64,000 nucleotides of DNA, taken from contig CAMAFY010000011.1 in the NCBI GenBank assembly GCA_945833885.1, positions 1 through 64,000 of the forward strand, given 5' to 3'. This document shows, one piece after another, positions 2,640 through 63,564 of the stretch. The notes beneath the pieces are model-generated. The model worked only from the letters and a program-made list of their open reading frames with translations. It was not told the origin of the DNA and made no database searches. Source of the DNA: an uncultured Bacteroidales bacterium. Its GTDB lineage: Bacteria; Bacteroidota; Bacteroidia; Bacteroidales; Bacteroidaceae. Position 1 is the stretch's first letter. Every line of letters starts with the position of its first letter. The translations under genes were made by a program, and so were the position numbers.

Positions 2640-2749
2640 ACTGCGAAGGCTTGTTTCCCGGACTGCGGAAACACGTATCCCGGACTGCGGAAGCATACGT
2701 GCAGAACTGCGGAAGCATACGTGCAGAACTGCGGAAGCATACGTGCAGA
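2640..2749. repeat. 22-nt tandem array, 5 units (core ACTGCGGAAGCATACG)
   Basis: Units start at 2640, 2662, 2684, 2706 and 2728, each exactly 22 nt. The last three are identical; the first two are diverged. Located in the lysS 5' leader. Confidence 0.95.
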
Positions 2750-2839
2750 ACTGTGATAATAAATAGTTAGAAGTGCGGAAGTACGGACCATCTTTGCCCA
2801 AACTCTCGCACATTGGATTGTGTCCATGCCACCCAAAGC

Positions 2840-2940
2840 ATTGGAAACGACAAGAGAAACCATTGAATCGACAGGAAAACTGTTGGAACAAATAGGAAAA
2901 CTGTTGGAAACGACAGGAAAAACCATTGATAAACTAAGTA
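2840..2940. repeat. Degenerate ~21-nt tandem array (core TTGGAAACGACAGGAAAA)
   Basis: About five copies with lags of 20-22 nt, immediately upstream of the lysS start codon. Confidence 0.8.
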
Positions 2941-2953
2941 GAAACATCCAAAT

Positions 2954-4762
2954 ATGATTAATCTCGAACTCAGCGAACAGGAGATTGCACGCCGGGCTTC
3001 GCTCGCTCAACTCCGCGAACGTGGGATAGAACCTTATCCTGCTGCCGAATTCCCAGTCAACGCTTGGAGCGATGACATCCGCGAAAACTTTACAGAACTC
3101 CCGTATCAGACCGATGAAAACGGGCAGATTGTGACCGACGAAGCGGGAGAACCGCTACGAATCGCGGCAAATGCCGACAACAGCCGCAACGTAACGATTG
3201 CCGGACGTCTGATGGGACGACGGATTATGGGAAAGGCTGCCTTCGCAGAACTGCAGGATTCGCGCGGAAGAATCCAAGTTTACATCCAGCGCGACGAACT
3301 TTGTCCCGGAGAAGACAAAGACCTTTATAACGTTGTCTTCAAGAAACTCCTCGATTTGGGCGACTTTATCGGTGTAAGTGGCTATGTTTTCCGCACAAAG
3401 ACCGGTGAAATCAGCGTACACGCCCACTCTTTGACCCTCCTGAGTAAGAGCCTTAAGCCACTTCCTGTCGTGAAAGAGGCCGGAGGTCAGGTGTTCGACG
3501 CTTTCGATGATCCGGAATTGCGGTACAGACAACGCTATGTTGACCTCATCGTCAACAATGGTGTCAAGGAGACGTTTCTGAAACGTGCCACCATTGTACG
3601 CACAATCCGACGCATACTTGACGAGGCTGGATACACAGAAGTGGACACTCCTATCCTCCAAAACATTGCAGGAGGAGCCAGCGCACGCCCATTTATGACC
3701 CACTTTAATGCGCTGAATCAGGATATGTATATGCGCATTGCCACCGAACTTTACCTCAAAAGGCTCATCGTTGGCGGCTTTGAAGGCGTCTATGAGATGG
3801 GAAAGAACTTCCGAAATGAGGGAATGGACAAGACACATAACCCCGAATTCACCTGCATGGAACTGTATGTCAGTTACAAAGACCTGAACTGGGGTATGGA
3901 ATTCACCGAGAAAATGCTCGAAACCATCTGTACCGCCGTCAACGGAAAGCCGGAAGTGGAGATCGATGGCAAGGTGATTTCCTTCAAGGCTCCCTTCCGT
4001 CGTCTGCCAATCCTCGATGCTATCAAGGAGAAAACAGGCTACGACCTCTATCCGATGTCAGAAGATGAAATCCGCGAGACCGCAAAAAAACTGGGCATTG
4101 AGGTGGATGACACCATGGGAAAAGGCAAACTCATCGACGAAATCTTCGGAGAAACCTGTGAAGGAGACTTCATACAACCGACCTTCATCATGGACTATCC
4201 GGTAGAGATGTCACCGCTGACAAAAATGCATCGTTCAAAGCCCGGACTCACCGAACGCTTCGAGTTGATGGTGAATGGCAAGGAACTTGCAAACGCATAT
4301 TCCGAACTTAACGACCCCATTGATCAGGAAGAACGATTCAAAGAGCAGATGCGTTTGGCCGACAAAGGCGACGATGAAGCGATGGTAATCGACCAAGATT
4401 TCCTACGCGCACTGCAATATGGTATGCCTCCAACCTTTGGAATTGGCATCGGAATCGACCGTCTTGTCATGCTACTTACTGGGAAGTTTGCCATCGGAGA
4501 AGTGATGCTTTTCCCCCAAATGAAGCCTGAAAAGAAGCCACAACGCGACAAAACGGATGCTTATACCGCCATCGGCGTGCCCCAAGACCTTGTACCCGTC
4601 GTGCAGAAGGCCGGATATTATATGGTGGGAGATTTGAAGGAATCGAACCCACAGAAGATACAACAGCAGATAAACGACGTGCTGAAAAAGTACAAGATCA
4701 CCGAAGTTCAGCGCCCGAGTGTCCAGGAAATCACCGCCTGGGTAGAGGCCATCGGCGAATAA
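2954..4762 (+). CDS. lysS: Lysyl-tRNA synthetase, class II
   Basis: Charges tRNA-Lys with lysine. 602 residues, longer than the ~500 of the E. coli enzyme. N-terminal OB-fold anticodon-binding domain (residues ~60-180, with [22 protein letters not shown] split as a family hallmark), then the class II catalytic core: motif 2 at [14 protein letters not shown], motif 3 at [17 protein letters not shown]-terminal extension of ~75 residues after the core (from about KTDAYTAIG) resembles the extension seen in Bacteroidetes LysRS; its role is unknown to me. Preceded by its own promoter and a repeat-filled leader. Start ATG gives the expected N-terminus. Confidence 0.97.
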
Positions 4763-4800
4763 TGTACGGACATTTCCCACAGGAAATCGCGCATTACAAG

Positions 4801-4890
4801 CCCGAAAGAACGGCACAATGCGAGGGAAGGACAGGCAGCGACAATAAAAACGACTGACCTGACAGCCCGAAAGAACGGCATGATGCGAGG
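4801..4890. repeat. 65-nt spaced direct repeat downstream of lysS
   Basis: The 17-nt core CCCGAAAGAACGGCA..ATG plus GCGAGGGAAGGAC occurs at 4801 and again at 4866, a lag of 65 nt, close to three times 22. Confidence 0.75.
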
Positions 4891-4988
4891 GAAGGACGGA
4901 GATTTCCATGCCTTTCCCCCGCCATCTGCCTAATCCCCACCGACAAATCCGACCTCATTCATCCAATTTCTCCCATAAAAACACCGCT

Positions 4989-5246
4989 ATGGCCATCGTA
5001 CATTTCAAGACATGCAACAACAGTTTTGAGGCAGAACTCCTGAAAGGACGCCTGGCATCGGAGGGAATACCCTGCGTTCTCCAAGGCGGAAACACATCCA
5101 TCTTCAATGCAGGATTGGGAGTTCAGACGGCATTCTCCGTAAATGTCCTTATCGATGAGCAGGACATGGAACGCGCCCTGCGGATGTTGGAAGACGACAA
5201 TGCCGGAGAAGAGCCGGACGACCTTCCCTATGAAGACCCCGAATGA
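4989..5246 (+). CDS. DUF2007 family protein
   Basis: 85-residue protein matching the DUF2007 (putative signal-transducing protein) pattern: it opens with a conserved strand (VHFKTCNNSFEAELLKGRL), then GIPCVLQGG, a central FSVNVLID strand and an amphipathic end (DMERALRMLED). This is a small ferredoxin-like fold with no known biochemical activity. I take the ATG at 4989 because the open frame upstream is low-complexity and homologues begin at this strand. It stands alone between repeat-containing gaps. Confidence 0.8.
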   Translation: MAIVHFKTCNNSFEAELLKGRLASEGIPCVLQGGNTSIFNAGLGVQTAFSVNVLIDEQDMERALRMLEDDNAGEEPDDLPYEDPE

Positions 5247-5325
5247 CGGAAAACCTTCCCGGATTTTCCCATAAATACAACCTGAAAGAAACGGTATTCC
5301 ATCTCGTTTTTCCGCCATCTTCAAA

Positions 5326-5525
5326 AGAGGAACTCCGGAAAAATTGCAAGAGATTTCCGTTTTTCTTCTAAGGAATTCCGACAACGGCAGAAAGAAATTC
5401 CGGCAATATCACAAAAGGATTTCTGAAAGATTGCAAGAGAATTACAACACACTGACAAAGTTTTTCCAGCAAAAAACGAACAGGAATTCTGACCTTAATA
5501 CAAGAAAGATCCCGCAAAAGGGATT
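5326..5525. repeat. Degenerate 22-nt array upstream of queC (core AAGGAATTCCGACAACGG)
   Basis: Diverged units begin near 5326, 5348, 5370, 5392, 5414, 5435, 5457, 5479 and 5502; lags are 21-23 nt, mostly 22. They fill the DUF2007-queC gap. Confidence 0.75.
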
Positions 5526-5564
5526 GGCGAGTACTTGAAAACCTCCATAAAAAAACAAGACATC

Positions 5565-6287
5565 ATGAACAATACCCCCATTTCCTCATTGCCAAAGCCC
5601 CTGCTCCGACTGAGCGGAGGTGCGCGTGGCGACCGTGCTCTCGTCGTACTTAGCGGCGGACAAGACTCCACTACCTGCCTGTTTTGGGCGAAACATCACT
5701 TCAAAGAAGTCTATGCCATCACCTTCATCTACGGACAAAAACATAGCGAAGAGGTGAAACTTGCAGAAGGAATATGCAAGGATTACGGTGTAAACTTCCG
5801 ACTTATGGACGTCAGTTTCATATCATCACTGAACCATAATGCGCTGACGGACTCCACAATCACCATGGATCAGGAGAAACCGTCCAATGCTTTGCCCAAC
5901 ACTTTCGTGCCCGGCCGCAACCTTTTCTTCCTGAGTATCGCCGCAGTATACGCCAGAGAAATCGGAGCGTACGACATTGTCACCGGCGTAAGTCAGACAG
6001 ATTTCTCAGGATACCCCGACTGTCGCGACTCATTCATCCGCAGTCTCAACGTCACACTCAATATGGCGATGGAGGAACAGTTCATCATTCACACACCTTT
6101 GATGTGGATTGACAAGGCGGAAACCTGGAAACTCGCCGACGACCTCGGCGTTCTCGACGTCATCCGCCAACGGACCCTCACCTGCTACAACGGTGTTGCC
6201 GGAGACGGATGCGGACATTGCCCGGCCTGCAAACTGCGAAAAGCCGGACTGGAACAATATCTTTCCACAAAAAACTCAGCAAAATGA
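5565..6287 (+). CDS. queC: 7-cyano-7-deazaguanine synthase QueC
   Basis: ATP-dependent synthase that turns 7-carboxy-7-deazaguanine into preQ0 in the queuosine pathway. 240 residues from the ATG at 5565; an in-frame TTG at 5535 is less likely. Seen: PP-loop [12 protein letters not shown] near residue 30, [25 protein letters not shown], and the zinc-binding cluster [16 protein letters not shown] near the end with four Cys. It overlaps queF by 4 nt (ATGA), so the two are translated together. Confidence 0.97.
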
Positions 6288-6745
6288 GCAACAGAGAAGC
6301 GGATGGCCTGAAAATTCTCGGCCGAAAAACAGAGTATAAAAGCGACTATGCACCCGAAGTGCTCGAAAGTTTCGTCAACAAACATCCCGACAACGACTAC
6401 TGGGTGCGCTTTAATTGCCCCGAATTCACCAGTCTTTGCCCCATCACCGGACAGCCCGACTTTGCGGAAATACGCATCGCATACATCCCCGATGTCCGCA
6501 TGGTGGAATCGAAAAGTCTGAAACTCTACCTCTTTTCATTCCGTAACCACGGCGATTTCCACGAAGATTGCGTGAACATTATCATGAAAGACCTCATCCG
6601 ATTGATGGACCCTAAGTACATAGAGGTCACAGGAATCTTCACGCCGCGCGGAGGAATCAGCATCTGGCCCTACGCAAATTACGGACGACCTGGGACAAAA
6701 TACGAGGCGTTGGCGGAATATCGTATGCAGCACCACGACCTTTAA
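6284..6745 (+). CDS. queF: NADPH-dependent 7-cyano-7-deazaguanine reductase QueF (short type)
   Basis: Reduces the nitrile of preQ0 to preQ1, the step after QueC. 153 residues, the single-domain (YkvM-like) form. Seen: catalytic Cys in [16 protein letters not shown], with the downstream Asp, and the substrate region [21 protein letters not shown]. Start ATG overlaps the queC stop. The C-terminus ends [15 protein letters not shown], typical of the family. No other queuosine genes are nearby. Confidence 0.97.
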
Positions 6746-6950
6746 GGTGGATTTCATCAGTTGCCGCCATAAAAACTTATTGTTGTCCTGTGGATGATGC
6801 TTTGCCGTTTCCCGGTCGTTTCCCAGAGAAAAACCCGGCTCATGCAGCCAAACAGCACGCCATGTTCCGCTGTTCACGGAAGTCCTCACCCTGAAAGACA
6901 GGATCAAATTCCGGCATAGCCACCCCCCACACACAATCTTGACACCTCAA

Positions 6951-7104
6951 AATCCTGATAAAAGGAAATTAAAATTCCGACAAAAGGTATTCCAAGTCCT
7001 GATAAAAGGAAATTAAAATCCCGATAAAAGGTATTCAAAGTCCCGACAAAAGGTATTCAAAATTCCGACAAAAGGTATTCAAAGTCCCGACAAAAGGAAA
7101 AGAA
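6951..7104. repeat. 22-nt tandem array, 7 units (core CCGACAAAAGGTATTCAA)
   Basis: Units at 6951, 6973, 6995, 7017, 7039, 7061 and 7083. The last copy changes into AAAAGGAAAAG and ends 3 nt before the next start codon. Confidence 0.97.
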
Positions 7105-7107
7105 ACA

Positions 7108-7401
7108 ATGAAAAGAGCCCTCACCATCTGGAACTTTTTCTGGAAAAGACGAAGCCTTTGGTGCTTCATTTTCCTAAGCATCACGCTGGGATTCTTCGAT
7201 GACAACAGCCTGAAAAACCTGCTCACGCTGAAACACGAGAACGAGGTTTTGAAAAGCGAAGTGGAAAGATACGAGCGAAACTACAACGAAGCCCAAAAGC
7301 AACTTCAGACAATGGAGAACTCGCAAGAGGCTATCGAACGCATCGCACGCATAAGATTACAGATGAAAACCAACGATGAAGACATCTATATCGTGGAATA
7401 A
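7108..7401 (+). CDS. DivIC/FtsB-like septum formation initiator family protein
   Basis: 97-residue bitopic membrane protein of the FtsB/DivIC type, which bridges early and late cell-division proteins. Seen: short basic N-terminus, one membrane segment (about residues 12-30, LWCFIFLSITLGFF), then a coiled coil (about 36-80, LKHENEVLKSEVERYERNY), and the family-like ending AIERIARIRLQMK..DEDIYIV. The start codon lies directly after the last unit of a 22-nt array, which supplies a purine-rich stretch. Probably in one unit with the next gene, 78 nt on. Confidence 0.85.
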   Translation: MKRALTIWNFFWKRRSLWCFIFLSITLGFFDDNSLKNLLTLKHENEVLKSEVERYERNYNEAQKQLQTMENSQEAIERIARIRLQMKTNDEDIYIVE

Positions 7402-7479
7402 TCCACCCCGAAAATCGTCAAATTCATTCTGCCGCACCAACACTTCCACCCTTCCGAAACCGACATTCCCCCCTTTTTC

Positions 7480-7842
7480 ATGAAACTTCAGAACATCATC
7501 TTCCAAATTGGCGGACTGCTTCTTGTGGCAGGTGCCATCATGCCTATGGTTCCTGGCATGTCAAACATGGCGGCTCTGTGCTTCGCCATTGGGGCATTGT
7601 GCTTCGCAGGTATGCAGATGTTGCAGCGCTACGACGGCAAAAGCGTCATCCTCCGACGCCTGTTCCGGCAGCAAAAACTCGGTGCGCTCCTCATCATCGT
7701 CAGTGCTGCCATGATGAATCTTCCCCAATACTTTCCCGAACTCCTGCAAGGCGACGAATGGAAAGTGACGCTCATCGTGGCCGCCGTGCTCGAGGTCTAC
7801 ACCTCATTCCGCATTCCTCAGGAAATGGAAAAGGCGGAATAA
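7480..7842 (+). CDS. Small conserved membrane protein
   Basis: 120 residues with four likely membrane segments: IIFQIGGLLLVAGAIMPMV, AALCFAIGALCFAGM, LGALLIIVSAAMMNL and WKVTLIVAAVLEVYTSFRI. No signal peptide or catalytic motif. I do not recognise a named family; similar four-helix proteins follow divIC in related genomes as far as I recall. Follows divIC by 78 nt and precedes another membrane protein by 68 nt, so the three may form one transcript. Confidence 0.7.
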   Translation: MKLQNIIFQIGGLLLVAGAIMPMVPGMSNMAALCFAIGALCFAGMQMLQRYDGKSVILRRLFRQQKLGALLIIVSAAMMNLPQYFPELLQGDEWKVTLIVAAVLEVYTSFRIPQEMEKAE

Positions 7843-7910
7843 TCCGCTTTATGACCGTAAGAATCAACTAAAAGCATCCATAATCAACCACAAAAACACC
7901 CGTTAACATT

Positions 7911-8567: not shown

Positions 8568-8593
8568 TCCTCAAATACCGAAAATTAAACGAC

Positions 8594-8625
8594 ACGCCCC
8601 CCGAAAGTACTGATGGCTTTCAGGG
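8594..8625 (+). terminator. Rho-independent terminator after the membrane protein gene
   Basis: Inverted repeat ACGCCCCCCGAAAG with CTTTCAGGGGGCGT, short loop, then TTTCTTT. Confidence 0.85.
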
Positions 8626-8638
8626 GGCGTTTCTTTGC

Positions 8639-8792
8639 GAATTATCGAAAACTATGCGGAAATTTTCCATTGTCCCGTTGTAATTCTGCCGTACTTTATC
8701 GCGCAAAGTGCGGAGGTTTAAGACAGAAAGTGCCGTACTTTTTCACACAAAGTACGGCACTTTCTATTGAAGAATGCGGAGGAATTTATTCC
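8639..8792. repeat. 22-nt array, about 7 units, AAAGTGCCG sub-family; contains a bidirectional hairpin
   Basis: Clear units at 8705, 8727, 8749 and 8771, and degenerate ones at 8639, 8661 and 8683. Units 8727 and 8749 are inverted relative to each other. The unit at 8771 extends over the stop codon (8786-8788) of the minus-strand Sel1 gene. Confidence 0.85.
8725..8765. terminator. Hairpin between convergent genes, probable bidirectional terminator
   Basis: AGAAAGTGCCGTACTTT pairs with AAAGTACGGCACTTTCT; T- and A-rich flanks allow use on either strand. Confidence 0.75.
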
Positions 8793-9673: not shown

Positions 9674-9897
9674 GGGATATTGGGGAAAGGGGATTCGGAA
9701 AAATGTTGTGGAAATGATGGCGAAACCTGATGTCCGCACGGGCACGGCGCCGGAGGAAATGCGGCGGCCGGAGCGGATTCCGCCCGTATGCTCCGCCTCG
9801 GACAGCGGAAAATTCCGCCAGTCTTCCGCCTTGCCGGCAACCTGCTGTTCAGGACCGTCCGAGACGTCTGTCGGAAGGTTTCGTGCAAAAATTTGCG

Positions 9898-12883: not shown

Positions 12884-13080
12884 TCGCTGTTGTTTTCCCC
12901 CAAAAAAACTGATTTTGGGGGGAGAATAACAGATGTTTTCCAAAAAGAAAAAGAGAGATTTGGAGGAAAATAACAGATGTTTTCCAATGCAAAAACGGAG
13001 ATTATAGGGGAAAACAACTGCTGTCTTTCGAATGAAAAAGATTGTTTTTTGGGGAGAGGAACAGATGTTTTCCAAAGCAT
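12884..13080. repeat. 44-nt tandem array, about 4 units (core AACAGATGTTTTCCAA)
   Basis: The core recurs at 12928, 12972, 13016 and 13060, exactly 44 nt (2 x 22) apart, with a weaker copy before 12928. Each 44-mer can be split into two diverged 22-nt halves. Confidence 0.9.
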
Positions 13081-13271
13081 CAAAAAGCGTTTCGTTGTGA
13101 AGGCACGGACGATTTCCAAAAACCACAAGACCGATTTTCCGTCCTCATTTATATAATGCACAGTGTTTTGAAGCGATAAAAATTGCACGCTTTTATATAA
13201 AAACACAGCACTTTTATTGCCATCATACCCGTTTTTCAACCAAATCCGCAGTGTTTTCCGCTACAAATCCT

Positions 13272-15883: not shown

Positions 15884-15993
15884 AAAGTACGGAACTTTTG
15901 GACACAAAGTACGGAACTTTCGGACGCAAAATGCGGAACTTTCGGACACAAAGTGCGGAACTTTCGGACGCAATGTCCGGAGGTTCTCCAAGA
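15884..15993. repeat. 22-nt array, 5 units (core AAAGTGCGGAACTTTCGG)
   Basis: Units at 15884, 15906, 15928, 15950 and 15972, exactly 22 nt each. Each contains AAAGT..GGAACTTT, a near-palindrome. Lies just after thrA. Confidence 0.97.
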
Positions 15994-21675: not shown

Positions 21676-21961
21676 AAAGTCCGACACCTATGATACCAAA
21701 GTCCATAGCCTATGATACCATTGTCCGAAACATCTAATACCACTTTCCGAAACTTTTAACCTTAATGGCTGAGAGATTTTACCTTAATGGCCGAGACTTT
21801 TAACGCTAATGGCCGAGACTCTTAATACTTATGGCCAGGACGTTTAACCTTTACGGCCGAGGCATTTAACACCAAAGACTCATCTTTTTAATATTAAAGC
21901 ACAGCCTTTCCACTCCAAGACCCAAAACTTTTTATAGCAAAAGCGCGGACCTCAGACTGAA
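21676..21961. repeat. 22-nt tandem array, 13 units, in the btuB leader (core AATGGCCGAGACTTTTAAC)
   Basis: Units start at 21676 and every 22 nt to 21940 without a register slip. Sequence drifts along the array: outer units begin AAAGTCC or AAAGC, inner ones AATGGCCGAG. Lies between the riboswitch and the btuB start. Confidence 0.97.
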
Positions 21962-22045
21962 AACTTCTGTTCCAAGCCTAATCATTTAGGGATGTTTGTG
22001 TCAGACCGCTGCCCGTAATCCCGCAGGCGGAACGGCTTTTCAACG

Positions 22046-22305
22046 TTCACGGCAGGTCTTCTGGCTCGTCCTTGTTGCGATACGCCTTCCCGAAAGTTCC
22101 GCCGTTTTCCACCCGGAAAACAGCGGACGGCGAAAACTTCCACCATGAAATTTTGCGCCCTCTCAGTGGCCGGGGCATTGATGCCCCATGTATCACAACG
22201 AAAAAAAGGACTCACAGCTACGGGTATAGCCGCAGTTTCTCACTGCGTTCCCTCTTGGCTCCAGCCCAAACCTCGGCAGTTTGCGGCGGAGAACCGTGGT
22301 TGCTA
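22046..22305 (-). promoter_or_regulatory. Cobalamin riboswitch
   Basis: Read on the minus strand: GAGCCAAGAGGGAACGCAGT near 22260, GCGGCTATACCCGTAGCTGT (the B12-box region) near 22215-22235, then GCCACTGAGAGGG, GGGAAGGCG, and the closing element GAGCCAGAAGACCTGCC at about 22048-22064. These are the conserved landmarks of the class in order. It precedes btuB, which it should repress when cobalamin binds. Confidence 0.93.
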
Positions 22306-22453
22306 TGGCAAAATTGGAGAAAAATTCGCGATGAAACAAGGCTTTTCGCGTTTTTTTCACAAACAGTTGTCATACAAACCCCCGTACGGGCTTTTTTGAA
22401 AGCCGTCATCACATTATTCTAAGGTTCGATGAACAAGAGAAGAAAGATTTTCG

Positions 22454-25481: not shown

Positions 25482-25591
25482 AAACAACCGAGGTTTATGA
25501 TGGAAAGTACGGAAGTTTGCAACGGAAAGTGCGGAAGTTTGCAATGGAAACTACCGATGTTTGCAACGGAAAGTGCCGAGGTTTACATCAG
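25482..25591. repeat. 22-nt array, 5 units (core AAAGTGCGGAAGTTTGCAA)
   Basis: Units at 25482, 25504, 25526, 25548 and 25570; related to the AAAGTGCCG sub-family. Degenerate copies continue to about 25650. Confidence 0.93.
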
Positions 25592-33566: not shown

Positions 33567-33654
33567 AAAGTGCGGCACTTTGTGACAGAAAGTGCCGCAC
33601 TTTTTGCTTGAAAGTTCCGTACTTTCTTGCCGAATGTTCCGAGGTTTCAAACCC
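33567..33654. repeat. 22-nt array, 4 units, AAAGTGCCG sub-family, with terminator-like hairpin
   Basis: Units at 33567, 33589, 33611 and 33633. The first two are inverted copies (AAAGTGCGGCACTTT, AAAGTGCCGCACTTT) and form a strong hairpin followed by TTTTT, a plausible end of the GH84 transcript. Confidence 0.92.
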
Positions 33655-39677: not shown

Positions 39678-39878
39678 ACTACGTGCAATCACAACGAACA
39701 CTACGTGCCATGCCAACTGACATGCGGGGCATGTAAATCGATTTCACAAGCCATTTGAATGACTTACTGCGTACAACGTAAATGGATTTTTCGTAATACG
39801 TAATTGAATATTGCGTACAACGTAAATGGATTTTACGCAATACGTAATTGTATATTGCGTAAAACGCAAATGAATGGC
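39678..39878. repeat. 22-nt array, about 9 units, partly 44-nt higher order (core GCGTACAACGTAAATGG)
   Basis: Units at 39678, 39700, (39725), 39747, 39769, 39791, 39813, 39835 and 39857. From 39769 two unit types alternate, so the best repeat is 44 nt. It fills most of the mnmA-prenyl synthase gap. Confidence 0.93.
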
Positions 39879-39973: not shown

Positions 39974-40933
39974 ATGATTGGAAAAATACGGTCGGCCATT
40001 GCCGAAATTCCCTATCCCCAGCGTCCGGAAGGGCTATATGAACCCATCGAATACGCCATGTCCATGGGTGGAAAACGTCTGAGACCCATGCTCATGCTCC
40101 TATGTTACAGTGTGTTCCGTCCAGACTGGGAACAGGCAATTCCCGCAGCAACGGCCCTGGAACTCTACCATAACCATACGCTTCTGCACGACGACCTGAT
40201 GGACCGTGCCGATGTTCGCCGCGGAAAACCCACCGTTCACCGCAAATGGAACGAGAACACCGCCATCCTTTCCGGCGACACCATGCTCCTGATGGCCGCA
40301 CAACAGATGGCTCGACAGCGCGTAGGACGATATGAGGATGCCAACGAATGCTTCCTGAAAAGCGCCATCGAAATATGCGAAGGCCAGCAATACGACGTGA
40401 ATTTCGAGCAACGCCACGGTGTGACCGAGGAGGAATACATCGAAATGATCCGCCTGAAGACCAGCGTTCTGCTGGGATGCGCGGCAAAAATCGGTGCCCT
40501 GCTGGCCGATGCCTCCGACGATGCCTGCGACATCCTCTATGCTTTTGCCGAGAAAATCGGACTGGCGTTCCAACTTCAAGACGACTATCTCGACTGTTTC
40601 GGCGATGAAAAGACCTTCGGGAAACGCATCGGAGGCGACATTCTGTGCGGAAAGAAGACATTTATGACCGTTGCCGCCATGCAACGTATGGGAGATGACA
40701 GCGAAAGAGATTCGTTCTTGGCAATCCTCGATGCCGAAGCTGGAACTCCGGAGGCCGAGGAAGAGAAGATCAAGCGCGTCATTTCCATCTACCAGAAACT
40801 GCACATTGCCGACGTCGCCAACGCACGCATCGGGGAATTGTACGACGAAGCCCACCGGATTCTGCGCAACCTTGATGCCGACACCTCGGCACTATGGGAC
40901 TATGCCACCTCGCTGCTCGGCAGAAAATCCTGA
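39974..40933 (+). CDS. Polyprenyl (farnesyl/geranylgeranyl-type) diphosphate synthase
   Basis: 319-residue trans-isoprenyl diphosphate synthase. First Asp-rich motif HDDLMDRADVRRGKPTVHRKW, second DDYLDCFGDEKTFGKRIGGDI. Also GGKRLRPMLMLL near residue 35. Product chain length cannot be set from sequence alone; farnesyl or geranylgeranyl is usual for the group. Followed 42 nt later by tatD, so probably co-transcribed. Confidence 0.93.
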   Translation: MIGKIRSAIAEIPYPQRPEGLYEPIEYAMSMGGKRLRPMLMLLCYSVFRPDWEQAIPAATALELYHNHTLLHDDLMDRADVRRGKPTVHRKWNENTAILSGDTMLLMAAQQMARQRVGRYEDANECFLKSAIEICEGQQYDVNFEQRHGVTEEEYIEMIRLKTSVLLGCAAKIGALLADASDDACDILYAFAEKIGLAFQLQDDYLDCFGDEKTFGKRIGGDILCGKKTFMTVAAMQRMGDDSERDSFLAILDAEAGTPEAEEEKIKRVISIYQKLHIADVANARIGELYDEAHRILRNLDADTSALWDYATSLLGRKS

Positions 40934-42285: not shown

Positions 42286-42395
42286 CGAACGCCGTACAAT
42301 TATTTTTAGAACACCGTACAGTTAATATTAGAACACCATACAATTATTTTTAGAACACCATACAGTTAATATTAGAACTCCATACAATTAATATT
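42286..42395. repeat. 22-nt array, 5 units (core AGAACACCATACAGTTAATA)
   Basis: Units at 42286, 42308, 42330, 42352 and 42374. The second half alternates between ACAATTATTTTT and ACAGTTAATATT, a 44-nt higher order. Confidence 0.96.
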
Positions 42396-42540
42396 AAAGG
42401 TGGGTGCCATAATTTACCATCGCAAATCTTTAGGTGTGTTCTATAAGTCAGTTTTGCCACCTTTCGCCCTGTTTCAGGCTTAAAAACGGGGAGCGGTGGA
42501 AGCGATTTTACGGAACATCTTACCCCAACATTCCCACACC

Positions 42541-44868: not shown

Positions 44869-44978
44869 GGAAACCACCTTACGAAAAGTGCGGCACTTTC
44901 CATCACGAAATGCGGCACTTTCAGCCATAAAGTACGGCACTTTCTGACGGAAAATGCCGTACTTTTTTCAGCGTCCTC
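44869..44978. repeat. 22-nt array, AAAGTGCCG sub-family, ending in a terminator
   Basis: CGGCACTTT cores at 44891, 44913 and 44935, and an inverted copy CCGTACTTT at 44957, exactly 22 nt apart. A diverged unit precedes. Confidence 0.92.
44929..44967 (+). terminator. Terminator after the thioesterase gene, built from two array units
   Basis: AAAGTACGGCACTTT pairs with AAAATGCCGTACTTT, then TTT. Confidence 0.75.
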
Positions 44979-51200: not shown

Positions 51201-51364
51201 TTCGACAGTTCCAACTTGCTCTCCGTACCGTCGGTGGAGATGTAATAACCGGCAGCAGCAATCTGCATGGTCTCCCAATTTATGCCCGTTGGCCAAACCG
51301 CTTCGGCCCAGGATGCGGAACCGAAGCCCAATGTCAATGCGACAAGAGTAAGGATTTTCTTCAT
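48242..51364 (-). CDS. Large secreted sialidase (GH33)
   Basis: 1040 residues from the ATG at 51364, with a signal peptide (MKKILTLVALTLGFGSASWA). Architecture: N-terminal ~1-330 beta-rich region, possibly two carbohydrate-binding or lectin-like domains; GH33 six-bladed propeller ~335-700 with the RIP motif (IPYRIPAITTTKNG) and Asp-boxes (SADNGQNWG, SYDDGKTWTEP, SDDFGQTWA); an Ig/Big-like stretch ~715-810; a second binding-like domain ~830-970; and a C-terminal tail (GIYTLDGRRLEALPSRRGIY, then VVNGKKVV) resembling Bacteroidetes sorting or CTD tails. Removes sialic acid from host glycans. Two 22-nt repeats abut its start codon. Confidence 0.93.
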   Translation of the reverse strand: MKKILTLVALTLGFGSASWAEAVWPTGINWETMQIAAAGYYISTDGTESKLELSKMTSQLDDTDLWYRVQNDDGSYSLYNKAAGPDKVLAASTTMSGKTGGSTFPKMVEKDNVPAGYTAEWTLTTANNLSPEDGEEFYIFEKGTSYALNNRDGYLAFWSTGQDTGSSVVFRWAAKEFDVNADTGAWTATNTSGTWASVWSSTDVTPVGVEVTAGANNMTYTGKDITGYGGLTNSSSYNLKTTDANYVVSAFSFDLTFVDGASSLMTLTMADGTEYKPSADAQHVSVEGLADQVYTMTLSGANKGITFGNLRLCVKRSLEEPEWQFNVFETRTTSDIPYRIPAITTTKNGVVLAIADYRTSRADIGSGRIDLHIRTSADNGQNWGDNIKPKVMEGDGNTTAGHQEAGFGDPCIVADRESDIIMVTSCSGTPGFFSGSRTHHQGWARWYSYDDGKTWTEPEYLDEEFIYAPFDNSKYGAVKGWFVGSGKIHQSRYTKIGDYYRLYCAGSTYNGVQTANWVLYSDDFGQTWAFLGGCDSSPIPGGDEPKVEELPNGNLVLSSRCTEGRKFNIFSFTDSDKAEGSWGTYALSSKSNNGVTANNGCNGEIQMVPVVRQEDGQKTWLALQSLPRGSGRTNVSIFYKDLTETSTYNTPANFARDWDGYHTVSKIGSAYSTMTVQSDKSIGFIYEEETFCGTGGGGYTIAYKNYTIEDITEGRYTYDLEYDPATTILPLTAIKVSADSESMTVVFNKPVQPNGLEDAAISLSESVKAYVTCEDKEVKLTYEYPLAAGKYTLELPEGTVMDADGQVNEAVSCTFRVLPTDIEPLGETVTKLSDVSEEKTYILYNPHYTAKAIYAPQYNDNMLWTGEMIGDATHELSNEAYSEEVNPADPNNAWMLVYLNNEYYLYNVGAEKCLVVGTNTGTRHCMFATSSPVNVQEISNGFAFSTSGSTNDWLCASPQLDYPVSVWTSSDAGSCWQLIENPNVEADVEFAEKVIVGIQEAQVEDSRAAEGIYTLDGRRLEALPSRRGIYVVNGKKVVNL

Positions 51365-51374
51365 AAGCATATTA

Positions 51375-51418
51375 GATTTATTTGATTTGTTTTCTGGATT
51401 TATTTGATTTGTTTTCCG
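51375..51418. repeat. Two 22-nt repeats directly upstream of the sialidase start codon
   Basis: The core GATTTATTTGATTTGTTTTC occurs at 51375 and 51397, exactly 22 nt apart; the first begins 4 nt beyond the alternative ATG. Confidence 0.93.
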
Positions 51419-51485: not shown

Positions 51486-51617
51486 GGATATCCTAATAAG
51501 TCACCTGGAATCGCCTAATCTTCAGCATAGAATCGCCTAATCTTCAGCATAGAATTGCCTAATCTTCAACATAGAATTGCCTAATCTTTAGCCTAAGATT
51601 GCCTATATACACCTCGG
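51486..51617. repeat. 22-nt array, 6 units (core AATCGCCTAATCTTCAGC)
   Basis: Units at 51486, 51508, 51530, 51552, 51574 and 51596; the second and third are identical. It lies between the sialidase and Rel/SpoT genes. Confidence 0.96.
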
Positions 51618-57561: not shown

Positions 57562-57853
57562 TTTTCGGTTTAGATTGTCGCGGGGCAGGCTGTGAAACGG
57601 GGCGATTTGCCGAAACCGGAGCATCGTTTTCCGGCATTCCCTGACAGGGACGTCCGTTACCGCCTGCGCAAAAACGTTTTGCAAAAATACGTTTTATTTG
57701 TCATTCAAAGCCTATCCACGCCTTTCAAACCGACCATATTTCGCTTCGCGATATCCGTTTCTCCGCCGAATGCCCACGTTTTTCAAAGAAATGGCTTTAT
57801 CGTTCCGCAGGCTTTCCGTAACTTTGCCGTGTTTTTTTCCAATTTCTACCGCT
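57562..57853. promoter_or_regulatory. Divergent promoter region for the MATE and AraC-type genes
   Basis: Minus-strand -7 box at 57689-57682 and plus-strand TAACTTTG at 57819-57826 with TTTA about 20 nt upstream. The plus box supports the AraC gene start at 57854. Confidence 0.5.
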
Positions 57854-59011
57854 ATGGACCCGCTTTTCCTCCTGCAATATTCCTGCTTTCTCTTCACGAC
57901 CATGTGTGCGTTGATGCTCGTTATCGCACGGATTCATTTGCCCCGCGTCTACCGGAACTACGAACGTATGCGCTGGGGGGTCTGCGCCGCCATGGCGATT
58001 CTCGCCATCCACTACTTCCTGCAAATGCGTTTCGGGCTGCGGGCCTCCGGTGACGACGTCGGACTGGTGGTGAATATCCTGTTCTACACTCCTGCCATCA
58101 TCCTCATGTGCTTTGCACTCAGCCACTCAGGACACAGCCCCCGCTACTACCGACGTTTCCGGATTTCCGCCATCGTGGCGTGCTCTTTGGTGGCAACCAT
58201 CTTCCTTACGGGGTGGCTTTCCCACAAATCGCTGCACATGGGCAGGTACGGCACCGTACTCCACATTGTATATTTCATCACCATCTCCGGATTCATCACA
58301 TCGACCATCCTCAACATCCGCAAGACTTTCAGAGGCATCATCGGACTCATCGGCGGCGATTTGAAACCTCTGGTACGGCATTTCTGGACAGGATATTTTG
58401 TACTTTGCACGACAGGCTTCGTGGGTTCGGCGTCCATTTTTTCGACCAGCCTCCTGCTTTTCATCGGTCCCCTCTGCATGCTCTCCATATTTTTTTTCAT
58501 CATGAACATCATTGCCCTGGGGAATTTTCTGATGCCCATCGAGGAACTGATGGAGGAAGATGAAGAAAGCACGGAAACGCCGATGCCGGCTGACGGGTTG
58601 ACGAAAGGCGATGAGCCACGGAATGCCCCTTGCGCACCGCAACTTTCCGACATTGAGAGCGCCCTGCAACAATGGATCGGACAGGAAAAATATCGCGATG
58701 CAACCGCCACTATCGCATCGCTGTCGCACGATACGGGCATCGCCAAACAGCATCTGACGGCGTATTTCGAGGAAAAAGGACTGGGAAATTTCCGCATGTG
58801 GCTCGGCGACATCAGGTTTGAGAAAGCGAAATGCCTGCTGACGAAACACCCGGAATACAGCAATGACGCCATCTCCGCCGCGTGCGGGTTCTCGTCAAGA
58901 AGCCACCTTTACAGGATATTCCGCAACAGAACGGGCATGAGTCCGGGCGAATGGCAGGCTGCGCAGGGCGAAGATTCCGCGACAAGCCATGAGGGAAGCG
59001 CAGAAGGTTGA
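57854..59011 (+). CDS. Membrane-bound AraC family regulator
   Basis: 385 residues from the ATG at 57854 (MDPLFLLQYSCFLFTTMC); the frame is open further upstream but the promoter box lies there. N-terminal ~1-240 has six or seven membrane segments (AAMAILAIHYFLQMRFG, NILFYTPAIILMCFALSH, IVYFITISGFITSTIL, FFIMNIIALGNF). After a linker with acidic residues comes the AraC HTH (~290-370: SLSHDTGIAKQHLTAYFEEKGL, FEKAKCLLTKHPEYSNDAISAACGFSSRSHLYRIFRNRTGMSPGEW). A membrane sensor-regulator; signal and targets unknown. Confidence 0.88.
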   Translation: MDPLFLLQYSCFLFTTMCALMLVIARIHLPRVYRNYERMRWGVCAAMAILAIHYFLQMRFGLRASGDDVGLVVNILFYTPAIILMCFALSHSGHSPRYYRRFRISAIVACSLVATIFLTGWLSHKSLHMGRYGTVLHIVYFITISGFITSTILNIRKTFRGIIGLIGGDLKPLVRHFWTGYFVLCTTGFVGSASIFSTSLLLFIGPLCMLSIFFFIMNIIALGNFLMPIEELMEEDEESTETPMPADGLTKGDEPRNAPCAPQLSDIESALQQWIGQEKYRDATATIASLSHDTGIAKQHLTAYFEEKGLGNFRMWLGDIRFEKAKCLLTKHPEYSNDAISAACGFSSRSHLYRIFRNRTGMSPGEWQAAQGEDSATSHEGSAEG

Positions 59012-59198
59012 AGGGGATGACGATGGCGTTCTGCAAGGATTCAGGATAGCCCGACGAGGTCCCTGGAAATCGTTCTTCCAGGCTTTTTCTACCGTGCCGC
59101 CGGACATTCGGCACCCTTCTCCCGAGCATTTCAACACCAACAACAGAGCATCATCCATCGATTTCAAGGCATTCCTACCGGTTTCTCCATATTATGCT

Positions 59199-59390
59199 TA
59201 AGGTTTCACACGCTTTTCAATAAGATTTCACACGAATTTCGATAAGGTTCCACACACACTTTGGTAAGGCTCCTCACACTTTTCGATAAGATTTTATGCG
59301 AATTTCGATAAGATTTTACACATACTTTGGTAAGATTCCTTACGCTTTTCAATAAGATTTTACACGAATTTCGATAAGATTTTACACGCA
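59199..59390. repeat. 22-nt array, 8 units (core AAGATTTTACACGAATTTCG)
   Basis: Units every 22 nt from 59199 to 59353 and a partial at 59375 that runs into a terminator. The second half rotates among three variants (TTCAAT, TTCGAT, TTTGGT). Confidence 0.97.
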
Positions 59391-59459
59391 AAAAGCCCTC
59401 CATTCTCCGGTGAACCGCACACGAAACATGCGGACTTCACAGGGGGATGGAGGGCTTTT
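59391..59459. terminator. Strong hairpin terminator between AraC-type gene and recA
   Basis: AAAAGCCCTCCAT pairs with ATGGAGGGCTTTT, with an inner GGTGAA/TTCACA pairing. Usable in both directions. Confidence 0.85.
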
Positions 59460-59532
59460 CTCATCTACAATTTCATTTGAAGCCTTGGGGAACTATCGTC
59501 TTGACCGTACGACTCCTTTGTTAGCACACAAA

Positions 59533-59773
59533 AAAGCACGGACCTTTTGGGCAAAAAGCATGGAAGTTTATCATAGAAACCTCCGTACTTTTCTACCAAA
59601 AGGTCCGTACTTTGTATCAGTAAGTTCAGTACTTTATGTCCGAATGTTCAGCACTTTGTATCAGTAAGTTCAGTACTTCGCGTTCGAATGTCCAGCACCT
59701 TATGTCCAACAGATTTGAAGTCGTCATCCGAAAGGTCCGTACACTCCATCCGGAAAATCCGCACCTTTCAGCG
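59533..59773. repeat. 22-nt array, 11 units, related to the AAAGTGCCG sub-family
   Basis: Units every 22 nt from 59533 to 59753. Cores vary (AAAGCACGGACCTTTT, AAAGGTCCGTACTTT, AATGTTCAGCACTTT), but the register holds across all. Confidence 0.95.
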
Positions 59774-59878
59774 AAAAGCACAATCTTCCCGCATGAGCGG
59801 ACCACGTTTCGACAACCATAACGCCATCAAAGACGGCAGGAAGATCAGCAACAGAGGATAGGAATGACGGTCGACCGA

Positions 59879-61015
59879 TTACTCGAAATCCACCTTGTCG
59901 GGGTCAATGCCGTCGAAATCGGGCATCTCGCCATCGTAGTCTTCCACGGCCATGGCGGCAGGAGCGGCAGCGGGTTTCTGCGCTTCGACCTCCTCACCAC
60001 GGAGAAGAATCTCGCGAACACGGGCTTCAATCTCGTTGCAGAACTCAATATTGTCCTCCAAAAACTTCTTGAGTTTCTCACGACCTTGGGCAATCATGTT
60101 GCCATTGTAACTGTACCATGAGCCGCTCTTCTTGATGATGTCGTGCTCTTCTGCAAGGTCGATGATCTCGCCCAGCAGAGAAATTCCGGTGCCATATATG
60201 ATTTCGAGGTCGCAAGAACGGAAGGGAGGAGCCACCTTGTTCTTGACAACACGTACACGCATGTTGTATCCGTACTCGGTTTCTCCCTCTTTAAGGCGCG
60301 TTCCGCGCTTCACTTCCAGACGCTGTGTGGAGTAGAATTTGAGGGCATTTCCGCCGGTTGTGGTCTCGGAAGGCCCGTACATGACGCCGATTTTCTCGCG
60401 AATCTGGTTGATGAAGATGCAGCATGTCTTCGAGCGTGCAATGGTTGCCGTGAGTTTTCTCAGTGCCTGGCTCATCAGACGCGCCTGAAGTCCCACCTTA
60501 CTGTCGCCCATTTCGCCCTCGATTTCCGCCTTCGGGGTAAGGGCTGCCACAGAGTCGATGACGATAATGTCGACGGCTCCGGAACTGATTACCTGATCGG
60601 CAATCTGCATGGCCTGCTCTCCGTTGTCGGGTTGCGAGAGGTAAAGCGAATCAATGTCCACACCCAGACTCGAAGCGTAGGCAGTGTCGAGCGCATGTTC
60701 CGCATCAATGAATACGGCACATCCGCCTTGCTTCTGGCATTCTGCAATGGCATGGAGGGCAAGTGTGGTCTTACCGCTCGATTCCTGTCCGTAGATTTCA
60801 ATGATTCTGCCGCGCGGATATCCGCCGACACCAAGCACTGTATCTAATTTGATGGAACCTGTGGGGATAACCGCCACCTTTTCATGGGTCTGGTCACCGA
60901 GACGCATGATGCTTCCCTTGCCAAACTGCTTTTCAATCTTTGACATCGCCGTCTGCAATGCCGCAAGTTTTGCATTGCCTTCCTTGGCGGCAACGGCTTT
61001 TTCTTTCTTTGCCAT
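59879..61015 (-). CDS. recA: Recombinase A
   Basis: 378 residues; the homologous-recombination and SOS protein. Walker [13 protein letters not shown]-type motif region GKSSGS-like GRIIEIYG, the L1/L2 loops near [17 protein letters not shown] and [28 protein letters not shown], and an acidic C-terminus ([21 protein letters not shown]). It begins 24 nt after the end of the saccharopine-dehydrogenase-like gene and is probably transcribed with it from the promoter at 62581-62611. Confidence 0.98.
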
Positions 61016-61039
61016 AGGATAAAAGTGTGGGAAATGGGA

Positions 61040-62275
61040 TTAGAGTTCAAGGTCGACGTCGTGGAGTTCATGCCAAGGCAGACCCTGCTTGTTCAGTTCT
61101 TCCATGAAGGGATCGGGGTCAAACTCCTCGACATTATGCACACCCGGCTTGTTCCAAAGCCCAAGCATGAACATGCGGGCTCCGATACATGCGGGAACAC
61201 CCGTGGTATAACTTACGCCTTGCATGCCGGTTTCTTCATAGGCAGCCTGGTGAGAGCAGTTGTTATAGACGTAATATGTGTGCTCCTCTCCCCCACGAAG
61301 GCCACGGATACGACAGCCGATTGAGGTCTCGCCATCGTAGTTCTCACCCAATTCCTGCGGATTCGGGAGGACTGCTTTGAGGAACTGCAAGGGCACAATC
61401 TTCACATCCTCCATGCCGGTTCCATCGGCTTTGGGGGCACGATATGTGATCTCGTCGATGCGACTCATGCCGATATTCTGGATAACATCGAGATATGTGA
61501 GGTACTGTTGTCCGAAAGTCATCCAGAAACGTGCGCGCTTAATGGTGGGATAGTTGATGACAAGGCTCTCGATTTCCTCGTGGTGCAGGAGGTAACTTTC
61601 CCGTGGTCCGACATTGGGATAGTTCAATGTCTTGTGGATTTCCATGGGTTCTGTCTCGACATACTTCCCATCTTCGTAGTACAAACCCTTCTGGGTGATC
61701 TCGCGGATGTTGATTTCGGGGTTGAAATTCGTGGCAAAAGCCTTGTGATGGTTTCCGGCATTGCAGTCGACAATGTCGAGATACTGGATCTCATCAAAGT
61801 GATGTTTTGCGGCATAAGCCGTGAAAATGGAGGTGACACCGGGGTCGAATCCGCAACCGAGGATGGCACAAAGGCCGGCCTTCTCGAAACGTTCGCGGTA
61901 AGCCCACTGCCAGGAATACTCGAAATGTGCCTCATCCTTAGGCTCGTAGTTCGCGGTATCGAGGTAGTTGCATCCGGTCTGGAGGCAGGCTTCCATGATG
62001 GTAAGGTCCTGATAAGGCAAGGCAAGATTCATGACAAGGTCGGGCTTGAATTCGTTGAAGAGCGCGACAAGTTGGGGAATCTCGTCAGCATCGACCTGCG
62101 CGGTCTTGATGTCGGAACGGATTCCTTGGTCCTTTATATACTTGGCAATGGCATCGCACTTCGATTTTGTGCGGCTGGCAATCATGATTTCGCTGAAGAC
62201 GTCAGCATTTTTTGCCACTTTTACTGCGGCAACGGTGGCAACACCTCCCGCGCCGATGATGAGTACTTTTCCCAT
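61040..62275 (-). CDS. Saccharopine dehydrogenase family protein (carboxynorspermidine synthase-like)
   Basis: 411 residues. N-terminal Rossmann fold VLIIGAGGVATVAAVKVAKN, then LVMNLALPYQDLTIMEACLQTGCNYLDTAN, LGCGFDPGVTSIFTAYAAKHHFDEI. The pattern matches Bacteroidetes Lys1-like proteins that make carboxynorspermidine or carboxyspermidine, rather than a lysine enzyme. No decarboxylase (nspC) in the window. Followed by recA after 24 nt. Function inferred from family. Confidence 0.85.
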   Translation of the reverse strand: MGKVLIIGAGGVATVAAVKVAKNADVFSEIMIASRTKSKCDAIAKYIKDQGIRSDIKTAQVDADEIPQLVALFNEFKPDLVMNLALPYQDLTIMEACLQTGCNYLDTANYEPKDEAHFEYSWQWAYRERFEKAGLCAILGCGFDPGVTSIFTAYAAKHHFDEIQYLDIVDCNAGNHHKAFATNFNPEINIREITQKGLYYEDGKYVETEPMEIHKTLNYPNVGPRESYLLHHEEIESLVINYPTIKRARFWMTFGQQYLTYLDVIQNIGMSRIDEITYRAPKADGTGMEDVKIVPLQFLKAVLPNPQELGENYDGETSIGCRIRGLRGGEEHTYYVYNNCSHQAAYEETGMQGVSYTTGVPACIGARMFMLGLWNKPGVHNVEEFDPDPFMEELNKQGLPWHELHDVDLEL

Positions 62276-62580
62276 TTTATATAGATGCGTTTTATTGATA
62301 ATTCTGATTTGATGGGGGATTTAATTCGGATTCGCCGGATTTTCAAGCCTGTCTTCAGCCGGAAAAGGCCGGAAGGCTGTATATCGAAAGCCACGGAACC
62401 GACAAGGAAGATTTGCGGCGGAAATTTACAAGACCGGCATATCTCGACGGACAACAAGGTCCGACTAACCGAAAATGCCGTGCAAAATGACTTCGGAATC
62501 TGGCTTTTCCGCTGGAAAATGCGGCATTCTCCACACGCTGTGACCTATATCGTGAAGGAATCCGCGTATGTTTTCATCGG

Positions 62581-62611
62581 CAAATGTACGTACATTTAGC
62601 AAAACGTGCAA
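62581..62611 (-). promoter_or_regulatory. Bacteroidetes-type promoter for the SDH-like gene and recA
   Basis: Minus strand TTG (62611-62609), 20 nt, TACATTTG (62588-62581); gives a ~300-nt leader. Confidence 0.65.
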
Positions 62612-62913
62612 CATTTTTCGGAGAAAATACCGAAAAATTCGTTCATTGTTCCATTATTTTGAACACAAAACCCGCATTTTGACTTCAAAACCACGTGTTT
62701 TGATGCTTTTCAACCGGGCATTATCCCTCGATTTTGTCACCGAAACACCCTCAATTTGCACATTTTTTCCGCACGGAAGTGCTGGCGGCGTTTTTCGCAG
62801 TAACCATTATATAGTACATTGCTTTTGGAACATACGTCTTCCAAATTCTCCTCCTTTAAGGACGCAAAGTGCTGATTTTCTGTATTTTCGCTGCATTTTA
62901 CACCATAAATGTC

Positions 62914-62921
62914 TAAATTTG
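62914..62921 (+). promoter_or_regulatory. -7 box of the DUF2582 gene
   Basis: TAAATTTG, about 60 nt before the start codon. Confidence 0.5.
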
Positions 62922-62982
62922 CAGCGTGATAAAAGGGAGCATTACCGCTCCTATTCCATAAACAACCTAAAAATTTACAGAA

Positions 62983-63186
62983 ATGATCAACGAAAAGGCC
63001 GGTGTTATTGCCGGTAAAATCTGGAATGCTCTCAACGAGCAGGGCACGCTTACTGGCAAGGATCTCAAGAAGGCTGCCGGTAAACTTAACGACAAGGACC
63101 TTTTCCTTGGACTGGGTTGGCTTGCACGTGAAGGCAAGATTGCTACCGCTGAGACCGAGAAGGACATCACCGTTACGCTGAAATAA
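62983..63186 (+). CDS. Small winged helix-turn-helix protein (DUF2582)
   Basis: 67 residues, the normal length of the family: MINEKAGVIAGKIWNALNEQG, then TLTGKDLKKAAGKLNDKDLFLGLGWLAREGKI (recognition-helix region) and TVTLK. The Bacteroidetes DUF2582 proteins are abundant small winged-helix proteins of unknown role, perhaps nucleoid or regulatory. It has its own -7 box. Confidence 0.9.
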   Translation: MINEKAGVIAGKIWNALNEQGTLTGKDLKKAAGKLNDKDLFLGLGWLAREGKIATAETEKDITVTLK

Positions 63187-63454
63187 TCGGCAGAACCCTG
63201 AGGTTTCTTACTTACTGAAATGATTGAGGCCGAGAACAAATGCCAGTATGGGCATCGTTCTCTACCTCTTTTTTTTGTGCCTTTTCCAAACATTCTGACT
63301 CAAACCGCCGCATTCCTGACCGCCGAACACAAACAACCGCCACAAAATCACCCGGGAAGCCCACGCAATGTGCGGGGAAACCCGTGGAAAAGATTTGATA
63401 ACGATACGGAACCATTTGAATGTTGTTGTCGAAACCCCTTGAGATGATTATCGG

Positions 63455-63564
63455 AAAGTGTCGCATTTCCTATGCAAAAGTGCCGTGGTTTGCAACGCAA
63501 AGTGCCGAGGTTTGCAACGTAAAGTGCCGAGGTTTGCAACACAAAGTGCCGTGGTTTAGATTTC
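63455..63564. repeat. 22-nt array, 5 units (core AAAGTGCCGAGGTTTGCAA)
   Basis: Units at 63455, 63477, 63499, 63521 and 63543. Close to the arrays at 25482 and 15884. Confidence 0.95.

Follow-up and report, generated by a model that had tools for sequence, protein, structure and literature searches.

The intergenic regions of an uncultured bacterium of the order Bacteroidales (family Bacteroidaceae) carry arrays of short dyad sites set in a 22-nt register, described here from a window of 64,000 nucleotides, that is, the whole stretch of DNA that was analysed (positions 1 to 64,000 of contig CAMAFY010000011.1, assembly GCA_945833885.1). These arrays are rather probably docking platforms of sequence-specific proteins of the HU-HIG family (PF18291), histone-like proteins that seem to change rapidly. 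They are spaced along the chromosome, their tested cores are nearly restricted to one or two species, and arrays of the same architecture stand beside HU-HIG genes in related genomes. Sequence comparison further suggests that HU-HIG proteins bind the arrays, that they do so cooperatively, and that the even placing serves to delimit chromosome domains, as anchors or supercoil barriers rather than as gene switches. Contig C11, which includes the window, comes from an assembly (G000, hereafter the own genome) of 3.11 Mb (3,109 kb) that is 87% complete. The closest named relatives recovered for its RecA come from uncultured Bacteroidales.

The 22-nt register and its core family

Within the gaps of the window, autocorrelation reaches 0.382 at lag 22 (z 9.0) and is also in excess at lags 44, 66, and 88 (z 7.2, 4.9, and 4.4), whereas the coding DNA shows no such repetition (0.266 at lag 22 and 0.261 at lag 44). 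Moreover, Markov shuffles of the whole sequence yield no segment at lags 21, 22, 23, and 44, and Tandem Repeats Finder (TRF) returns a period of 22 or a multiple at five of five example loci. These results bear out the preliminary description, which had read the arrays as intergenic, non-coding, and built on 22 nt or its multiples, also when autocorrelation is set against shuffled controls. An array census covering 855 kb of the 3,109 kb of the own genome, with genes called by a dicodon script, gave the same picture: among the intergenic lag segments with a score of at least 16, the best period is 22 in 78, 44 in 26, and 66 in 7, followed by 21 (6), 43 (5), 23 (4), 45 (3), and 65 (2), these being the eight commonest periods. 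The 22-nt register is confirmed as real, intergenic, and genome-wide.

Circular comparison of 111 own arrays (period 22, 44, or 66) places 61 of them in one similarity component, and the core AAASNNCSGNNSTTT is present in at least two copies in 57 of the 111. The earlier view that the arrays are not one dispersed element and have only the unit length in common does not hold for the 61 arrays of this component and stands for the remaining half. The family unit consists of a 15-bp dyad, AAASNNCSGNNSTTT, with half-sites such as AAAGTGC, AAAGTTC, and AAACATC, followed by a nearly free 7-nt spacer. Of the exact core, 165 copies fall within 176 kb of intergenic DNA and 4 within 679 kb of coding DNA, and shuffled gaps contain none. 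The distance from one core to the next (one mismatch allowed) is 22 nt in 164 of the 184 spacings below 200 nt, 44 nt in 14, 66 nt in 3, and another value in 3. Core identity is 0.79 within and 0.73 between arrays, and spacer identity is 0.41 and 0.30, respectively; since the spacers are almost free and the cores are kept, a family array resembles sites lined up at a constant pitch rather than a copied minisatellite. Four units are commonest in the own family (41/72), and a four-unit span is found in 20 of the 23 arrays of family F1 in the related genome G064. The cores in this study were written as patterns after inspection of the sequence, with the exception of that of genome G040, which was taken beforehand from a gene-side array alone.

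The idea that a unit of two helical turns may be bound by protein holds up, while the accompanying proposal of phased bending as the shared factor does not. The family core has AAA and TTT in alternation, 12 and 10 nt apart, and A- or T-tracts 11 nt apart are not a general trait: circular A+T autocorrelation at lag 11 amounts to 0.01 for family arrays and -0.07 for the rest. The predicted net bend, computed with wedge parameters, has a z of 0.91 in the own family versus 0.56 in other gaps, and intrinsic curvature was rejected as the common cause because the net-bend z differs between families, with 3.05 in one G064 family and 0.27 and 0.80 in two others.

The same architecture with other cores across the genus

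Most of the genomes sampled in part from the same genus, whose members are mostly uncultured, contain the same architecture with other cores and with periods of 21, 22, or 23. Specifically, the core is TTCACASTGTGAA in G002 and TACCTCWGAGGTA in G027 (both period 21), TAACCCTAGGGTTA in G007 (period 22), and GGCCACAGCTGTGGCC in G010 (period 23); G008 and G036 both carry a TCTGCA-type core (21) together with TCATGCGCATGA (22), and G064 carries GTTTG-N7-CAAAC (21) plus several 22-nt families. Such arrays are absent from the sampled parts of G004 (400 kb) and G006 (60 kb) and nearly so from that of G065, and the order-level outgroups (12-20 kb each) give low-score A+T-rich matches and no convincing arrays. 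For the core pair of the own family, there are 206 occurrences in the own genome and 3 in G053, while 56 other genomes have none.

The single-contig genome G004, in which 22-nt arrays are lacking, has 9-nt units (GAAGTTAAC and others) repeated in 24 intergenic arrays, of which some lie inside a dispersed element. These were rejected as members of the same system, as they look like another repeat.

HU-HIG proteins as candidate partners

Searches for the HU-HIG family give many strong matches in several array-rich genomes, whereas G004 and G006, the two sampled species in which such arrays are lacking, yield weak matches only. Matches at E<=1e-10 occur genus-wide in at least 51 of 58 genomes, and G029 has none among the matches listed at this level. 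All ten proteins scanned pass the Pfam gathering cut-off of 26.2 with 57-103 bits and are HU-HIG members. The family profile matches HU/IHF structures, its tail matches winged-helix regulators in PDB (E about 1e-3), and helix-turn-helix models match four of seven long HU-HIG proteins, below cut-off. An expansion of the HU-HIG clade in Bacteroidetes was reportedly described in a 2017 paper; we know of no described DNA target for these proteins, and their pairing with the arrays is the new part.

Long HU-HIG genes (called length at least 197 aa) have a 21-23-nt array upstream in 12 of 13 cases (lag score at least 16), 70-192 bp before the start, and long forms with upstream arrays recur among 20 further HU-HIG genes and five more that were examined. 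An array lies within 500 bp of 22 of the 34 HU-HIG genes that have flanks, as compared with 78 of 419 control genes (300-800 bp); the former count follows a correction in which L196 and L201 (other repeats) were removed and L195 and one G064 gene were added. A test set of 19 further HU-HIG genes was chosen by open-frame length (201-263 aa) among the matches listed, with further eligible genes left out, and consists of upstream DNA only, with the gene start taken to coincide with that of the HU match. The strongest upstream lag, of lags 12-33 scanned, is 21-23 in all 19 of these genes and in 181 of 677 control genes (27%) from other species of the genus, and an upstream score of at least 16 is reached by 11/19 and 82/677, respectively (Fisher 4e-6).

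Several of the arrays beside HU-HIG genes have counterparts dispersed in the same genomes. The G040 core gives 160 in-register pairs in G040 and 0 in the 57 other genomes, and the gene-side core of G002 gives 67 pairs in G002, 2 in G023, and 0 in 56 others. Gene-side cores also recur elsewhere in the genome in G036 (two families, shared with G008), G010, G009, and G064 (family F5), as in G002. With weight matrices, dispersed matches were found for the gene-side arrays of L188 and L189 (in G036 as well as in the sister genome G008), of L187 (in G007), and of L193 (in G009).

Pyrimidine-purine steps bend easily, and the own linkers favour them at positions 2-3 (39/70) and 5-6 (42/70). In G040, the 6-nt linker starts and ends with such a step in the 34 plus-strand places listed (counted by eye), a pattern of which part may be an extension of the dyad. 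Bendable linker steps would suit an HU body lying over the linker.

Orthologous HU-HIG genes of G008 and G036 (91% identical) have a four-unit array at the same upstream place (L177:1333-1418 and L188:524-612); the array centre differs in all four units, a concerted change. Of the seven short forms of the family in 500 kb of G064, six lie within 1 kb of an array of family F3, located just downstream (0.26 expected for random genes), possibly as a mobile gene-array unit. On contig G064:C6, eight HU-HIG matches have an open frame of exactly 140 aa and are dispersed over the contig. Other odd repeats flank a short HU-HIG gene at G000:C25:36252-36331 and 40054-40156 (ATTCGTGTTCG-like) and at G053:C86:4302-4434 (ACACGAATT-like).

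None of eight own-genome proteins encoded downstream of arrays, among the nearest, is an HU protein (LolA, YccF, a DbpA-type helicase, valyl-tRNA synthetase (ValRS), and others), nor is any of 10 proteins encoded next to G064 arrays that are rare or could not be classified. ParB paralogs were rejected as makers or binders of the arrays, since most genomes have one ParB.

Placement along the chromosome

Neighbouring own family arrays are 11.1 kb apart on average, with a coefficient of variation of 0.41 and a minimum of 3.0 kb (65 distances among 70 own arrays), while nulls with random places or gaps have coefficients of 0.75-0.95. Under a null that keeps the preference for gap length (69 own arrays, G064 family F3 left out), none of 64 own distances falls below 3 kb versus an expected fraction of 0.11 (P 0.0005). 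The core-defined arrays of six other species behave likewise, with 0 of 70 distances below 3 kb versus a null fraction of 0.132 (P<0.0005). Own distances above 20 kb are also too rare (0.046 versus 0.124, P 0.006). The own family arrays sit in long gaps, for instance in 25 of 33 tandem gaps of at least 600 bp. G027, G002, G007, and G036 pooled have a coefficient of 0.41 versus 0.75 (P 0.001), and G008 alone does not reach significance (10 distances). In seven species, no gap holds two core-defined arrays (142 of 145 arrays could be assigned to a gap). With F3 included, the 48 classified arrays of G064 occupy 48 gaps at a minimum distance of 4.1 kb, indicating that different core families also keep apart. 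The non-random placing that characterizes chromosome organizers is thus seen for core-defined arrays, in G064 by exclusion only and with exceptions. The orientation of the arrays shows no clear bias with respect to transcription or replication.

Arrays of the window

The window contains the following arrays with the family core:
8683-8763, dyad array with core AAASNNCSGNNSTTT, 4 units of 22, the first degenerate
15884-15986, dyad array, 5 units of 22, the last degenerate
25482-25584, dyad array, 5 units of 22
33567-33647, dyad array, 4 units of 22, in a gap of 583 bp whose orthologue in L023 measures 148 bp and is array-less
44885-44965, dyad array, 4 units of 22
59533-59706, dyad array following recA in a convergent gap, with 6 units up to 59657 and degenerate units farther on
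63477-63557, dyad array, 4 units of 22

The arrays of 22 nt without the core (class B) are as follows:
2638-2753, 22-nt array without core (class B)
6947-7100, 22-nt array without core, best period 44
12904-13120, 22-nt array without core, best period 44
21676-21870, 22-nt array without core (class B), between a cobalamin riboswitch (22034-22313, minus strand, Rfam) and a TonB-receptor gene (minus strand)
39765-39875, 22-nt array without core, best period 44
42287-42396, 22-nt array without core
51353-51416, 22-nt array without core
51508-51605, 22-nt array without core
59199-59390, 22-nt array without core, best period 66

The array beginning at 21676, first described as extending to 21961, is supported to 21870 only, and its position between the riboswitch and the start of the TonB-receptor gene suggests that it is probably transcribed within the leader. 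A repeat of another kind, an in-frame 87-nt tandem repeat, lies inside a gene at 649-839; His, Asp, and Glu codons are abundant in it, and it perhaps encodes a metal-binding stretch.

Interpretation and alternatives

As a docking platform of HU-HIG proteins, each array would set 3-5 (often 4) dyad sites on one helix face, 21-23 bp apart (two turns). HU-HIG dimers would sit side by side on successive dyads, with the winged-helix-like tail reading the dyad core and the HU body bending the linker. The long HU-HIG genes, carrying their own array copy just before the start, would probably control themselves, and the same core, which recurs roughly every 10 kb in the longer gaps between genes, would mark chromosome domains by its even placing, in the manner of anchors or supercoil barriers. 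The chances appear about even that this amounts to a chromosome-wide address system, in which most species of the genus would write their own dyad code via private HU-winged-helix proteins, intergenic arrays of about four phased sites at near-regular ~10-kb steps would bound domains or mark self, and the codes in one genome would be interchangeable for spacing. What forms the barriers of bacterial supercoil domains is treated as an open question in a passage of a nucleoid review (PMC6907758), and the arrays are barrier candidates that can be read from sequence, each core with a candidate protein. If the proposal holds, it would provide DNA targets for a branch of the HU superfamily without known ones and, with its many natural pairs of protein and site, material for learning how HU-winged-helix specificity changes.

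Several observations weigh against docking by HU-HIG proteins and against even placing. No dyad array lies within 500 bp of twelve of the 34 HU-HIG genes, for the most part short forms, and 4 of the 19 test genes (L205, L206, L211, and L219) do not score above the best of 40 shuffles. In weight-matrix searches of small samples, the gene-side arrays of L182, L186, L192, L197, and L200 have no or background-level matches elsewhere; that of L190 has 3 matches in the sister species and none in its own genome, those of L191, L195, and L198 have one match each and one or two in other genomes, and that of L140 has 12 matches to G064 F1, against 2 in its own genome. G065 has at least four HU-HIG matches but only two detector hits in 100 kb. 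The only HU-HIG match of the own genome at 1e-10 (contig C25, short and tail-less) has no AAAS array within ~7 kb upstream or 4 kb downstream; no cognate gene was found in the window's own genome, so that its partner is unproven. As to placement, G064 is not even without F3 (coefficient 0.94 versus 0.86, though no distance is below 4 kb), and with F3 the coefficient is 0.79 versus 0.84-0.97 (P 0.06-0.34). Adding 12 unclassified G064 arrays produces three pairs below 3 kb; in one of these, an array resembling F2 and a match to F1 of two units are separated by 1.9 kb. In G009, two arrays of the same family are 1.4 kb apart, and a generic detector, whose output includes class B arrays and a few loci hit twice, reports neighbours below 3 kb 23 times in the own contigs, twice in G064, and once each in G008, G036, and G009. 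Given these close pairs, mutual exclusion is strong but not absolute.

Ordinary operators, with the HU-HIG proteins as transcription factors and the arrays as their regulon, would also account for the array found immediately before 12 of 13 long HU-HIG genes, a position expected under autoregulation. This explanation is unlikely in view of the even spacing and of the position of the own arrays relative to genes: none of the core-defined arrays lies less than 100 bp from a gene start, the median distance being about 485 bp, and a family array is present in 23 of 34 convergent gaps of at least 350 bp, but in 0 of 39 divergent gaps below 600 bp.

Similarly doubtful is the possibility that the arrays are dispersed mobile palindromes, resembling repetitive extragenic palindromes (REP) and bacterial interspersed mosaic elements (BIMEs) or miniature inverted-repeat transposable elements (MITEs), whose target immunity would produce the spacing without a role in the chromosome. 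The arrays do come and go, as seen at 51 conserved gene pairs with a gap: six have an array in one species only, and the array-bearing gap is the longer one in five of the six (1320/90, 435/43, 362/59, 583/148, and 221/91 bp, with the exception of 639/707). Mobility would also agree with the F3 arrays that accompany short HU-HIG genes in G064, with a few loci whose flanks are common over up to 361 bp at 78%, and with a partial match to the REP transposase over cut-off in the own genome (Y1_Tnp, 39-121 of 121). Conversely, the spacers are nearly random, and the different core families of G064, in the 48 classified arrays, avoid each other. Once the arrays are masked, most flanks are unshared between loci and their k-mers are weakly enriched with no strong motif, and a common flank element was rejected on this ground. 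Moreover, the REP-associated tyrosine transposase (RAYT/Y1_Tnp) exceeds the cut-off in just 26 of 58 genomes, among them the array-less G004, and was not found in the array-bearing G002.

Less likely still, the arrays could be self-identity marks, namely signals for DNA uptake or defence read by a diversifying protein family. The near confinement of the three tested cores to one species each points in this direction, as does the presence of the own core pair in just one stretch of a viral contig collection, although rarity in viruses may only reflect the sampling of hosts. G008 and G036, however, have cores in common, and no uptake or defence gene was found linked to the arrays, no search having been aimed at such genes.

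Minisatellite slippage under a length constraint fits the 54 core-less arrays of the 111, in which the best period is often 44 or 66, the median copy number is 4.8 versus 3.8 in family arrays, and dyads are not in excess (5/54 at p<0.05). It is very improbable as a general explanation, given the preferred unit number, free spacers, and kept cores of the family arrays. Resemblance to the core at p<0.05 was detected in 14/54 of the core-less arrays, some of which are probably decayed family members; what the rest have in common is the unit length of 22. Core-less arrays are rarer in gaps that hold a family array (7/67 versus 23/96, gaps of at least 350 bp).

Lastly, an RNA role, which had been left open at first and would make the arrays hairpin terminators or stability elements, is the least probable explanation: the own arrays give more stable folds than shuffled sequence (mean z -2.68, with z below -2 in 55%), as expected of any dyad consensus, but self-complementary inner triplets are rarer than chance (14 versus 25.6 +/- 4.3 in the own family and 5 versus 11.0 +/- 2.9 in F1), and the units pair less with themselves (2.46) and with their neighbours (2.71) than with units of other arrays (3.16), out of 7.

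Comparison with known systems

Among known repeats, BIMEs have been proposed as supercoil barriers, according to the same portion of the nucleoid review (PMC6907758), and REP and BIMEs resemble the present arrays in being intergenic near-palindromes that occur in groups and are species-specific. In contrast to the REP features given in part of a published account (PMC3733652), the own core lacks a GTAG/CGTC tag, and selection for hairpins is not seen, complementarity being depleted; the arrays described here also differ in their strict register of 21-23 and in the HU-HIG genes beside them. By inspection, the core of G027 does end in GTAG.

BrickBuilt of Porphyromonas gingivalis, to which the preliminary description had pointed, is likewise an intergenic tandem repeat of the Bacteroidales, with a unit of 23 nt. 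In the available part of its description, it is a single sequence family, carried in 19 copies by a MITE that has a leader, a tail, and terminal inverted repeats, and a structure of dyad plus free spacer does not appear there (PMC4596501). The present arrays do not belong to it: leader, tail, and terminal inverted repeats in common are lacking, and the flanks share little between loci and contain no strong motif. BrickBuilt and REP/BIME, compared by those portions of the published descriptions, each fail at least one defining feature for these arrays, and no description of such an array system was found in the Creative Commons (CC)-licensed PMC literature searched. Clustered regularly interspaced short palindromic repeats (CRISPR) were rejected as well, since the arrays have degenerate 12-18-nt cores and 4-10-nt linkers instead of near-identical repeats with unique spacers of ~30 nt; no search was aimed at the cas genes that would accompany such repeats.

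In MatP/matS and Noc/NBS, a dimeric DNA-binding protein acts on many dispersed palindromic sites. Those sites are single and have a conserved core, whereas the system described here consists of multi-dyad arrays, with several core families in some genomes and with cores that differ between most species.

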